A stretch of DNA of 64,000 bases from contig JAQGEQ010000290.1 in NCBI GenBank assembly GCA_034620365.1, forward strand, positions 62,001 through 126,000. Direction: 5' to 3'. Within the stretch, counting starts at the first letter, position 1; every line of letters starts with the position of its first letter. Positions 245-55,514 of this stretch are shown piece after piece. Source of the DNA: Pegea sp. RAD2-039. Lineage: Eukaryota > Chordata > Thaliacea > Salpida > Salpidae. Made by a program: the position numbers and the translations under genes. Below the pieces are notes generated by a model. That model was not told the origin of the DNA and did not search any database. It saw only the letters and a list, made by a program, of their open reading frames with translations.

Positions 245-317
245 TACAAAATGGTGATAATAATATTTTGGAATATTTGAAGCAAAATGTTTGTTGATTT
301 GTCACGCGATGATGACG

Positions 318-3300
318 TCACTCGTTGATAGGTACAACGTAGCCACTAGGGAAAGCTCCAGAACGATGTAATTGATGTTCGATGTGTCCAAACTGCGATT
401 ACGTCATCAAAAGCTGATACAATAGCGCGTTGTCACGGTAACTCACCCACCAGGCACTGTCCTCGTAACCAGTGACAACGATTACTTCATTTTCCACGAA
501 TGTCAATTCATCTTCACGATCTGCATCACAATCCCAGATAGCTCGGACACGTTTCGGCTTCGATCTACAAAAAGCGTCAATGAGGTCATCATCGCGTGAT
601 TGCGTCAACTGACCTTGAAGGAGGATCGTCTCGGAGCATCTCTGATGGATGAGCTGATCTTGGAAGCGAGTAAGATCCGGGAGGACCTTTGCGTCGATGA
701 CATATGATCAAGAAAGCGAAATCAGTGAAGTGGAACAAACCTGAAGGCGGGTTGCGATGATATAATGATGACGTCACAGACCGCGATGGTGCAGCTGGAG
801 ATGATGTCATCTGATTAGTTACGGCATTATCACTAGTTGGCAGCAACACGGAATGTCGACCGCTTAATTGATTCCGACGATCAATGACGTCATCAAAAAA
901 CGATTTACAGCGAACTGGTATCGCGTTGGATCCGTTACTAGGCAACCGACGATGATCAGTATGTTGAGCTGAAGATTTAATCCGCATCCGAATATCGGAA
1001 TCCGGAGTCATCACTGGTGATCGTTGTGGTTGCGATGCAGCTGTGACGTCATTTGTGCGATGACGTAACGCTGAAATAGAATTATTGTAGAAGTCAATGA
1101 TGATGCTGGTGACGTCATCACCTGGTTTGCTGGGTGGTAGTGGCGGAGGACGCGATTTGTTGTCACCAGTAGCAGCTGAAGACGTCATAGATAGTTTTCT
1201 AGCAACTGCGCGAAACATCGAGTTAACAAAAGTCAGATTCAACAGGAAAACTTACCGAAAGTTGGTTTTTCCGGGAGGGGTGGTGTTGGTGACAAACTTG
1301 TTCGTGATGACGTATGACTTCTGGTTCGATTACCATGGGCAGGAACAGGAGGCGGTTCACGACGAACTGGTGCTACTGGTTGAGTGTCATCAGATTTACT
1401 TCGTTCTTTAAAATGAAGTTGCTGAGAAAGTTCTTGAGAAATCTGAAAAAGAGTTAAACGTTAGCTTCACTTAGCAACCAGTTAGTTTCACTTAACAACC
1501 AGTTAGTTTCACTTAACAACCAGTTAGTTTCACTTAACAACCAGTTAGCTTCACTTAACAACCAGTTAGTTTCACTTAGCAACCAGTTAGTTTCACTTAA
1601 CAACCAGTTAGTTTCACTTAACAACCAGTTAGTTTCACTTAACAACCAGTTAGCTTCACTTAACAACCAGTTAGTTTCACTTAGCAACCAGTTAGTTTCA
1701 CTTAACAACCATTTAGCTTCACTTAACAACCAATTAGTTTCGCTTAACAACCAGTTAGCTTCACTTAACCAGTTAGTTTCACTTAACAACCAGTTAGCTT
1801 CACTTAACAACCAGTTAGCTTCAACAACCAGTTAGTTTCACTTAACACTTAGCTTCACTTAGCAACCAGTTAGTTTCACTTAACAACCAGTTAGTTTCAC
1901 TTAACAACCAGTTAGTTTCACTTAACAACCAGTTAGTTTCACTTAACAACCAGTTAGTTTCGCTTAACAACCAGTTAGCTTCACTTAACAACCAGTTAGT
2001 TTCACTTAGCAACCAGTTAGTTTCACTTAACAACCATTTAGCTTCACTTAACAACCAATTAGTTTCGCTTAACAACCAGTTAGCTTCACTTAACAACCAG
2101 TTAGTTTCACTTAACAACCATTTAGCTTCACTTAACAACCAGTTAGCTTCACTTAACAACTAGTTAGCTTCACTTAACAACCAGTTAGTTTCACTTAACA
2201 ACCAGTTAGCTTCACTTAGCAACCAGTTAGTTTCACTTAACAACCAGTTAGTTTCACTTAACAACCAGTTAGTTTCACTTAACAACCAGTTAGCTTCACT
2301 TAACAACCAGTTAGCTTCACTTAACAACCAGTTAGTTTCACTTAGCAACCAGTTAGTTTCACTTAACAACCATTTAGCTTCACTTAACAACCAATTAGTT
2401 TCGCTTAACAACCAGTTAGTTTCACTTAGCAACCAGTTAGTTTCACTTAACAACCAGTTAGTTTCACTTAACAACCAGTTAGTTTCACTTAACAACCAGT
2501 TAGCTTCACTTAACAACCAGTTAGTTTCACTTAACAACCAGTTAGCTTCACTTAACAACCAGTTAGCTTCACTTAACAACCAGTTAGTTTCACTTAGCAA
2601 CCAGTTAGTTTCACTTAACAACCATTTAGCTTCACTTAACAACCAATTAGTTTCGCTTAACAACCAGTTAGTTTCACTTAGCAACCAGTTAGTTTCACTT
2701 AACAACCATTTAGCTTCACTTAACAACCAATTAGTTTCGCTTAACAACCAGTTAGCTTCACTTAACAACCAGTTAGTTTCACTTAACAACCAGTTAGCTT
2801 CACTTAACAACCAGTTAGCTTCAATTAACAACCAGTTAGTTTCACTTAACAACCAGTTAGCTTCACTTAGCAACCAGTTAGTTTCACTTAACAACCAGTT
2901 AGTTTCACTTAACAACCAGTTAGTTTCACTTAACAACCAGTTAGTTTCACTTAACAACCAGTTAGTTTCGCTTAACAACCAGTTAGTTTCACTTAACAAC
3001 CATTTAGCTTCACTTAACAACCAATTAGTTTCGCTTAACAACCAGTTAGCTTCACTTAACAACCAGTTAGTTTCACTTAACAACCATTTAGCTTCACTTA
3101 ACAACCAGTTAGCTTCACTTAACAACTAGTTAGTTTCACTTAACAACCAGTTAGTTTCACTTAACAACCAGTTAGCTTCACTTAGCAACCAGTTAGTTTC
3201 ACTTAACAACCAGTTAGTTTCACTTAACAACCAGTTAGTTTCACTTAACAACCAGTTAGCTTCACTTAACAACCAGTTAGTTTCACTTAACAACCAGTTA

Positions 3301-54129: not shown

Positions 54130-54324
54130 GACTTATATTTAACAACTAAATGATAAAAACATGAAGTTACTTAAAAATTGATTCTGAATACTTTTTTTTT
54201 AAGACAAAAAAGTGCAGACATGATATAAACAGAGATTCGAACCAAAGATCCCAAAGAAAGATTTAGGAAGTTATTTAAAAGTTTGTGATAACAAAGTTCG
54301 AAAGAGAGAATCTCAGAAATCTTC

Positions 54325-55514
54325 TCAAATAGACTTCTTCTTGATGCTGTATCTTCCTTTATTGATGTGAAGAAGAGGAATTCTGATCTTTGCGGAATCA
54401 TTGATCTTTCGGACATAGATTTCACGGTCACTAGTTGAATGTAAGATTGCTGTGTACTTAGTTGTGTCCTTGTGGTTGACAACTAAGATATTTTGGCCGA
54501 GATGAAACCATGTTCGTTCAAAATACAACTTCCCATTTTCCACTCTACACTCATTGATTCCATTCTGCTGATTCATATGTCTGTCACGTGACGTCATCGT
54601 CTTCGCACTTTCGATAGCCTGTAAAGATCGAATGAGATTTTGAAGGATCTAAAGATAGACTCACCTTAAGATCATCTTCTATTTCTTCAGGTGACGCCAT
54701 GTAGGTGATCGCTGAGACACCTTCTCTACGCCGCTTCTCATTGGCTGTTGGCATTGGTTCGTTCGGACGCGGGCGCAGTTTTCGCGTTTGAACTTTCGTG
54801 TTGCTGTTTATCGCGCTGTTTAAATCGCTGTTTTGACGCTCAATTTCCAGTTGTTTCCTTTTCTCCTGGACAAGTTTAAGGCATTTGTTAATTTTTATGA
54901 TGTTGTTGGTTGGCGTTTCAAGGAACTTATACCCAACTGATGAGGTTTAAAGTAAACAATTTCTATGGATTGAATGTTCATAATAACTTACAATTATACC
55001 AGCAATTAAAGATTGTTTTAAATCTTCCTTCTCTTTTTTCCATTCAGCTTTAATTTCTTCTTCTTTACTAATTTGTTCACGATCAAACTACAAATCATAA
55101 TAAAATAATTTTTCTTAAACTAAATCAAATGTTATGAAAGAACAACTTCAAACAAATTTACCCTGGCTAAGTAGAAGTTGTAGTTTAGTTGTAGTCTTCT
55201 TTGTGTATCTTTATGATGAATTTCAAGTTTTTTCTGCTTTCTACAAAACTCAGGAAGTGTTCCGCCATCTAACTGTTGTAATTGTATTTTAATCTGCTTG
55301 CTTTTTTCTCTATACATCTCTTCTTTAATCTCATTTGTATCTTCAATTTTAATTTGATCTGTTTCACTAGCATCATCAGTAACTTCACCTATTTGAAATT
55401 AAGCAAACACAAAACTTTTTATTTAATTTGTAGAATCTTACCTGAACCACCAGTCAAATCATCATCATCATCAAAACTATTATACTCTTTATCTGATCTC
55501 TTTTCTGAAGCCAT
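54325..55514 (-). CDS. SUDS3: SDS3 subunit of the Sin3/HDAC corepressor
   Basis: Scaffold subunit that holds HDACs in Sin3 complexes and represses transcription in the nucleus. Five exons (55442-55514, 55162-55388, 54992-55087, 54665-54865, 54325-54618) sum to 891 nt, 296 residues, against 328 in human. MASEKRSDKEYNSFDDDDDL start, then the Sds3 coiled coil (KSKQIKIQLQQLDGGTLPEF), the RKLRPRPNEPMP segment matching human RKLRRRPNDPVP, EEIEDDLK, and a C-terminal capped Tudor-like part (GKLYFERTWFHLGQNI; REIYVRKINDSAKIRI). All phases agree. The last exon contains one TGACGTCA. It is immediately upstream of PFAS on the same strand. Confidence 0.92.

Follow-up and report, generated by a model that had tools for sequence, protein, structure and literature searches.

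The palindromic octamer TGACGTCA is over-represented in the genome of the salp Pegea sp. RAD2-039. Its copies are exact and clustered in gene bodies, lie in exons as well as introns, are dyad-symmetric together with their flanks, and are ringed by 100-200 bp of retained CpG. Such packing by the thousands, in patches inside some genes, suggests that these genes are shaped by something that reads the DNA itself.

In the window, by which we mean the whole 64-kb stretch analysed, we counted 62 exact copies, against a mean of 0.47 and a maximum of 2 in 100 dinucleotide-preserving shuffles. A prior sequence-only reading had put the number at about sixty and its density far above chance, and both statements held. 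A genome-wide count, which that reading had proposed as a check, likewise gave an excess: 27,792 copies in 105.7 Mb compared with 969 of the reversed-word control, and 3,824 of the longer form GATGACGTCATC compared with 4. When 8-mers with at least 12 occurrences were ranked in 20 pseudo-random 10-kb loci (tandem arrays masked, both strands summed), TGACGTCA showed the highest ratio of observed to expected counts (46 vs 1.23); at least one copy was present in nine of the 20. Across the window, these loci and locus L001, exact copies numbered 133 against 1.6 expected, whereas all one-mismatch forms together reached 108 against about 60 (approximately 1.8-fold), the most enriched neighbour being the outermost-letter variant CGACGTCA (8 vs 0.8). 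Density of the word climbs with GC, yet some GC-rich bins, for example in locus L009, have no site.

Within the window the word is confined to three blocks, with 6, 42 and 14 copies and none in the remaining DNA. The claim that it is absent elsewhere thus stood for the window and failed for the genome, where the word is clustered yet widespread. Island A (313..6234, minus strand) covers the 3' half of a gene that the sequence-only reading and our own inspection by eye assigned to an ASAP-like ArfGAP; its sites start at 313, 769, 885, 1044, 1110 and 6227. A 21-bp minisatellite of 188 copies inside this island (1460-5386) lacks the motif. Island B (17439..25112, plus strand) lies in a TPR-like coiled-coil gene, assigned in the same two ways, and holds sites at 17439, 17756, 17774, 17855, 18254, 19055, 19254, 20333, 21061, 21139, 21268, 21383, 21425, 21494, 21639, 21776, 21820, 21924, 21973, 22211, 22345, 22370, 22493, 22520, 22815, 22837, 23372, 23530, 23551, 23593, 23626, 23683, 23748, 23770, 23907, 23929, 24080, 24098, 24320, 24549, 24992 and 25105. 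GC in its 1-kb bins is mostly 0.42-0.47, with 0.34 at 20 kb and 0.29 at 25 kb, and the observed/expected ratio of CpG (CpG o/e) reaches 1.6. In a comparison meant to detect a second haplotype, the best candidate matches to the densest 4 kb (20900-24900) were short (about 40-110 bp, 72-93% identity), and no second long copy was found among them. Site positions in general showed no clear longer-range period.

Island C (49223..54596, minus strand) spans PFAS, identified by PDB alignment, and a SUDS3-like gene recognised by eye, with sites at 49223, 49338, 49499, 49589, 49737, 49814, 50573, 51187, 52432, 52705, 52727, 52771, 53261 and 54589. Three minus-strand PFAS sites could be compared with homologues. 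The site at 49338..49345 encodes the DVT of PYDVTMEDL and aligns ungapped with WDVTMQDL of the best PDB homologue, 9n9w, so codon choice alone suffices to produce it. At 49589..49596, DVT in LQCDVTC faces LQAEPRC of 9n9w, a substitution with no indel. The site at 49814..49821 encodes DDVI and adjoins a two-residue alignment gap, so an indel is possible there. Two other minus-strand sites, 49499..49506 and 49737..49744, are exonic in our rough gene model; by our own reading the former, which was kept out of the PFAS alignment query, is intronic near the donor and the latter lies just inside the donor (GTGATGACGTCATC) of an intron of about 51 nt. The site at 52432..52439 (minus strand) falls in a PFAS intron of about 46 nt, and a PFAS intron also contains a 22-bp tandem array of 5.9 units (52704..52832, plus strand; unit ATGACGTCATTGTTTTCATGTG), three of which carry the exact word. 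In PFAS the word recurs near intron donors.

We classified 310 sites from 29 sources, eight of them chosen for site density, on this gene model, which tends to fuse genes over long introns, possibly contains antisense shadows and conflicts with our reading at 49499 and 49737. On it, 127 sites were exonic, 87 in short introns, 28 in longer introns, 5 at junctions and 63 elsewhere. The sites are thus mostly exonic or intronic rather than at promoters, as the sequence-only reading had held in placing the word in both and in denying that promoter CREs explain it. Its remark on reading frames was also correct: the predicted-exon sites comprise 72 of the form xxT-GAC-GTC-A, 55 of the form xTG-ACG-TCA and none in the frame that reads a stop. 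Similarly, one or two sites were said often to share a 50-bp intron, and among 270 introns predicted to be no longer than 110 bp (rough model, with eight loci chosen for density) 72 had a site and 26 at least two, at positions scattered along their full length. In predicted exons, codon pairs are skewed towards the word (odds ratios of 19 for GAC-GTC and 21 for ACG-TCA), and DDV, DVI and MTS are enriched 9-15 times.

The flanks are dyad-symmetric in gene orientation, and similarly so in exons and introns. In introns, position -1 reads A83/G26 on the 5' side and A92/G22 on the 3' side, and position -2 G64 and G66; symmetry at -1 is weaker for sites outside predicted genes (A32/G22 vs A53/G3), and past about 3 bp the flanks are weakly shared among sites. 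Pairs of sites peak at a spacing of 20 bp, with 466 cases; 251 pairs lie at 25 bp, and the mean across 9-39 bp is 174. Tandem arrays make up part of this peak (10 of 50 listed pairs, and several of the pairs read in sequence). As to the suggested DNA or RNA structure, hairpins were not supported, for spacer ends did not covary in 40 pairs at this spacing, drawn from the 50 listed of 466. The symmetric flanks point instead to a two-fold-symmetric DNA-binding protein, and the same dyad-symmetric word in exons and introns upholds a cause at the level of DNA. Small tandem arrays occur in or near the islands, some of them containing the word. In 14 gap-free arrays, mismatches were as frequent in the motif (39/615) as in the spacer (77/1132; p = 0.76), which argues against an inserted or mobile palindrome.

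CpG o/e is 1.37 within 10 bp of sites, 1.1-1.4 within 100 bp and 0.55-0.63 beyond 400 bp; the gradient is also seen separately in the random loci, the window and the picked loci, and at matched GC. GC itself climbs from 0.28 to 0.42 on approach to sites. The patches thus resemble CpG islands in exceeding their surroundings in both CpG o/e and GC, with a mean GC near sites of about 0.4, below the classical island threshold of 0.5. That threshold is quoted in PMC1796609. Two other CpG palindromes, CACGTG and TCGCGA, are about nine to ten times as frequent close to sites as in DNA more than 1 kb away (TCGCGA 0.46 vs 0.05 per kb), so the patches are CpG-rich in general; CACGTG was rejected as a specific signal since TCGCGA rises equally. 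The genome encodes DNMT3 (PDB match) and, by eye, two DNMT1-type loci and one DNMT2-type locus. Among the four C5-methylase loci read, out of nine (11 matches), no evident candidate for a sequence-specific methyltransferase was found.

In other organisms, TGACGTCA is a docking site of CREB/ATF/Jun-type proteins. The salp genome, with 12 bZIP_1 matches, encodes a CREB1-type bZIP and, by eye, a Jun-type one, and the core carries RTGACGTCAY or GATGACGTCATC flanks. The extended word equals the matrices FOS MA1951.1 (GATGACGTCATCA) and FOSL1::Jun (ATGACGTCAT) (PMC9164029); the affinity of the CREB bZIP for CRE is sub-nanomolar (PMC11514473), and in mouse neurons CREB1 binding is sensitive to methylation (PMC9729108). 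We favour, tentatively and with slightly less than even confidence, the reading that TGACGTCA, extended to TGATGACGTCATCA, is a site iterated across the genome for a dimer of the CREB/ATF/Jun bZIP class, occupied in the germline and lying in gene-body islands that are unmethylated; we infer the germline occupancy, the methylation state and the force that multiplies the sites. A bZIP dimer would occupy intragenic sites in the germline and prevent CpG methylation of the patch around them, where CpGs would then survive. Selection for occupancy would hold the sites exact, and new ones would arise by point substitution where protein sequence and splicing permit, often in pairs separated by about two turns of the helix. 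As open or unmethylated elements within genes, the islands might then be for gene bodies what CpG-island CREs are in vertebrates. Core and preferred flanks are identical to those of CREs. Known CREs, however, are promoter-biased in vertebrates, while those of sea squirt, fly and worm have no preferred position (PMC1796609), and the exon and intron saturation seen here is absent from the CRE description in the relevant passages of that paper.

Several observations count against bZIP occupancy. The reading makes the heavy demand that selection at about 28,000 sites be strong enough to alter residues; the array motif is conserved no better than its spacer; the 20-bp peak includes tandem arrays; and the retained CpG may be a cause, not an effect. 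Flank symmetry is weaker outside predicted genes, and six small pieces around the CREB, Jun and DNMT genes contained no site. The reader may also be a two-fold-symmetric protein other than a bZIP.

Among the alternatives, a recombination element is unlikely yet deserves the most weight. The word would act like the fission-yeast M26/CRE meiotic hotspot, and the GC- and CpG-rich minisatellite islands would be hotspots shaped by GC-biased conversion, in agreement with the rise in GC towards sites and with the tandem arrays. The link between arrays and sites is weak, however (8 of 30 2-kb bins with sites and 13 of 102 without contain arrays in the random loci and window; p = 0.09), and GC bias gives no means of preserving A and T within the exact octamer. 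The hotspot paradox, in which conversion normally loses rather than gains break-inducing motifs, predicts loss of the word. We know of no iteration of M26 by the thousand, unlike here. ATGACGTCAT, present at 136 of the 310 sites, matches the M26 hotspot motif, which requires Atf1-Pcr1 in Schizosaccharomyces pombe, is active inside an open reading frame too and creates hotspots in budding yeast, where it is described as lacking significant correlation with natural break sites (PMC3534124).

The closest analogue, in statistical terms, is HIP1 (GCGATCGC), the Highly Iterated Palindrome of cyanobacteria, likewise a palindromic octamer in great excess, with conserved flanks in some genomes and one-letter deviations mostly at the outer letters (PMC4390886). 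In the salp, too, a palindromic octamer heads the 8-mer ranking, and the outermost-letter variant is the most enriched neighbour. Here, by contrast, the genome is animal, the clusters lie in gene bodies, the word matches a bZIP site and the C5-methylase loci read yielded no evident sequence-specific enzyme. The author of the HIP1 work infers that its excess may arise incidentally from repair, though he also makes a case for selection on HIP1 itself (PMC4390886). A comparable functionless ratchet, in which methylation-linked mismatch repair converts near-matches into the palindrome, is rather improbable: the word is non-uniform and concentrated in gene bodies, and arrays conserve it no better than spacers. 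To our knowledge, animal DNMTs have no requirement for an 8-bp site.

Doubtful as well is molecular drive, in which a bound palindrome would shield its chromatid or cause gene conversion to copy preferentially from that chromatid. TGACGTCA would then spread through gene bodies by point conversion, with the hotspot paradox turned round and the choice of codons and amino acids overridden, and would be an animal equivalent of HIP1 or of DNA uptake sequences. The latter, in Haemophilus and Neisseria, are short words gained by point substitution, including in tolerant coding regions, and have been attributed to molecular drive (PMC1939737); they differ in being non-palindromic, bacterial and driven by DNA uptake.

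Passive retention, with the islands as unmethylated, GC-richer DNA where any CpG word survives, is improbable. CpG o/e and GC do climb along with site density and the other CpG palindromes rise too, but theirs is a nine- to tenfold gain, whereas the word lies tens of times above its composition expectation and bears extended dyad flanks.

The sequence-only reading had raised a spreading short palindrome; we give very little credence to such an insertion, be it the footprint of a transposon, an introner or a target of homing. Clustering, the recurrence close to PFAS donors, the word inside small arrays and small gaps beside three of the eight exonic sites covered by homologue alignments fit it; the other five align ungapped, without extra letters, flanks are weakly shared and short-intron positions are spread. 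Three further exonic sites in the queries, two in WDR19 and one in an RFC1 linker, fell outside the alignments and are uninformative; two PFAS sites had been excluded beforehand. The least credible alternative is that selection acts on the RNA or the peptide, through hairpins, exonic enhancers or DV/MTS motifs, for while the tripeptides are enriched and two palindromes could pair as RNA, one symmetric word recurs in two reading frames and in introns, and the 40 pairs compared show no spacer covariation.

Our literature search, mainly of titles and abstracts and with thin coverage of subscription journals, found no precedent for an animal genome saturated with TGACGTCA. The finding would show that DNA-level forces are able to alter the proteins of an animal extensively, and it opens to direct testing both the protection of gene bodies from methylation by transcription factor occupancy and the spread of a short site by drive in a sexual genome.

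The 8-letter palindrome TGACGTCA occurs 62 times in the window, against a mean of 0.47 and a maximum of 2 in 100 dinucleotide-preserving shuffles. All copies fall in three blocks, at 313-6234 (6 copies), 17439-25112 (42 copies) and 49223-54596 (14 copies), and an exact count over the whole window found none outside them. The sequence-only reading had reported this excess, the three blocks and the lack of sites elsewhere in the window, including the genes that it calls PSMD14 and NRAMP; all of this holds, with 0 sites counted in both genes. Site-holding 1-kb bins of the window have a GC content of 0.29-0.47, mostly above 0.37, compared with 0.20-0.36 for bins outside the blocks.

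The whole assembly (105.7 Mb in 387 contigs, the window belonging to C115) contains 27,792 copies of the word versus 969 of the same word read backwards, and 3,824 copies of its extended form GATGACGTCATC versus 4 of the control. Dense domains are present, for example at 2.01-2.22 Mb of contig C1. Among 20 loci of 10 kb, placed pseudo-randomly within parts of 33 contigs delimited by a kinase search, 9 held at least one site (46 in total, 0-19 per locus). With tandem arrays masked, the word had the highest observed/expected ratio in these loci (46 vs 1.23) of all 8-mers counted at least 12 times over both strands. In this animal the excess of the word is real and strong; it spans the genome and is a DNA-level phenomenon. 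Among the titles and abstracts listed in literature searches, none reported such an iterated word in an animal.

Sites are carried by PFAS, RFC1, WDR19 and MRCK, identified by PDB matches, and by genes that by eye are ASAP-like, TPR-like, SUDS3-like, tankyrase-like, RabGAP-like and adenylate-cyclase-like. Eight extra loci (L022-L029) were picked for density in match listings, so that the counts including them (gene-model, codon, flank, CpG-gradient, GC-matched-bin, spacer, tandem-array and CACGTG/TCGCGA) are biased towards site-rich genes. A rough gene model of the window, the 20 random and the 8 dense loci, which disagrees with reading by eye at 49499 and 49737, placed 310 sites: 127 in exons, 87 in introns of up to 300 bp, 28 in introns of up to 1 kb, 5 at junctions and 63 elsewhere. 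Per kb, this amounts to 1.6 in exons, 3.9 in short introns, 2.4 in longer introns and 0.27 in other DNA; the random loci alone gave 13, 14, 6 and 13 sites in these classes and 0 at junctions.

A 21-bp minisatellite of 188 copies, with several frames open, lies inside the ASAP-like gene (1460-5386), and GGTTG-rich minisatellites occupy the TPR-like region at 15809-16394 (15-bp unit) and 19482-19969 (24-bp unit), with similar units at L027:1225-1348. A 282-bp unit stands in two tandem copies (97% match) at 42805-43367. Elsewhere, protein-kinase domains cluster in long open frames (C265:335286-381761, C260 and C75).

With the sites themselves removed, CpG observed/expected was 1.37 within 10 bp of a site, 1.07-1.12 at 10-100 bp, 0.87 at 100-200 bp, 0.67 at 200-400 bp and 0.55-0.63 beyond, while GC dropped from 0.42 to 0.28. 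Random loci, the window and dense loci each showed the CpG gradient when taken alone; control CpGs more than 1 kb from any site gave a much weaker one (0.74 to 0.65). In the two GC-richest classes of GC-matched 500-bp bins, those with a site reached 0.83 and 1.12, compared with 0.57-0.69 without. As the genome encodes DNMT3 and, by eye, DNMT1-type and DNMT2-type enzymes, low CpG elsewhere plausibly reflects methylation, and the CpG-keeping patches are therefore probably unmethylated in the germline. CACGTG clusters near sites, but TCGCGA does likewise, making this a property of the patches. Seven long open frames (832-873 aa) carry a C5-methylase domain uninterrupted by introns, among them C57:824601-827300 (L030) and C32:24001-26300 (L031), with more copies on C57, C249, C32 and C52. 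The two that were read appear DNMT1-like; the C32 copy read lacks, by eye, the usual PCQ motif and may be catalytically dead.

In the excerpted text of PMC9164029, the FOS (GATGACGTCATCA) and FOSL1::Jun (ATGACGTCAT) matrices equal the extended word, and the CREB matrix its core. The genome has 12 bZIP_1 matches, including a CREB1-type bZIP on C14 and, by eye, a Jun-type one on C34; in mouse neurons, CREB1 binds DNA in a methylation-sensitive manner (PMC9729108, in excerpt). Together these point to a CREB/ATF/Jun-class dimer as the putative reader, which would occupy the sites and protect the patches from methylation, while selection would act on the sites. A different word, GTCACGTGAC, the core of a USF2 matrix, occurs 814 times versus 9 for its reversed control (e.g. 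C1:23088, 97728 and 999651), and at the 50 places listed on C1 appears less clustered than TGACGTCA.

The word also serves as a meiotic hotspot in fission yeast (PMC3534124, in excerpt), and a hotspot role here would fit the GC of the islands through biased conversion. GC bias, however, cannot hold the four A/T letters. Conversion also tends to remove hotspot motifs. A repair ratchet of the HIP1 type would find little support in the methylase loci, since the 4 of 9 that were read look like the usual animal enzymes. The word varied as much as its spacer in 14 tandem arrays free of gaps (arrays with indels left out), with mismatches at 39/615 positions of the word and 77/1132 of the spacer (p = 0.76). 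This argues against a copy-by-copy restoring mechanism and, to the same degree, against each copy being under strong selection. One 19-bp array (L027:8839-9191) has a unit read around as CACGTG fused with most of TGACGTCA.

Genome-wide, 5,407 pairs start 9-39 bp apart, a mean of 174 per distance; 20 bp (466) and 25 bp (251), the distances counted singly, both include tandem arrays (25-bp on C14, 20-bp on C1 and C8). The 20-bp spacing, about two helical turns, accounts for 10 of 56 pairs listed on C1, and spacers were unrelated in most of 50 listed 20-bp pairs. A hairpin is not supported, since 40 such spacers showed no covariation between their ends.

The pressure behind the word acts on DNA, as exactness, flank symmetry, codon pairs and substitution indicate. 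The window, random loci and L001 (fetched for its double copy) held 133 exact words versus 1.6 expected, and 108 one-mismatch forms, all together, versus about 60. On the gene strand, 5' and 3' flanks prefer alike A/G at -1, G at -2 and T at -3, separately in exons and in introns, with sites of the 'other' class less symmetric at -1 (A32/G22 vs A53/G3); such symmetry is not expected from a splice signal, an RNA-binding site or a peptide. In 159 predicted exons, GAC-GTC encodes 60 of 118 Asp-Val pairs (odds ratio 19, p = 2e-11) and ACG-TCA 58 of 215 Thr-Ser pairs (odds ratio 21, p = 6e-19); the tripeptides MTS (42 vs 2.9 expected), DDV (36 vs 4.0) and DVI (30 vs 3.3) are in excess.

Exonic sites align ungapped in RFC1 (SLRDDVMEYL vs SLKAIVAESL, 6vvo), in PFAS (opposite VWDVTMQDL, and LQCDVTC vs LQAEPRC, both 9n9w) and in MRCK (SDVIHA vs ADVIHA, mrck-1, 7z6e); two sites need codon choice only, because DVT or DVI is common to the homologue. 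Judged by length, the RFC1 BRCT site lies within an equal-length match (2ebu, 2k6g); the alignments do not cover two sites in WDR19 and one of those in the RFC1 linker. Insertion of the palindrome is very improbable, even though two-residue gaps adjoin three exonic sites (PFAS 49814, one further site in MRCK, and a different site of the RFC1 linker at which the query is longer by two residues). The nearest statistical analogue is HIP1, as excerpted in PMC4390886. The word of this animal would behave as a HIP-like iterated palindrome whose building block is a CRE/AP-1-type site.
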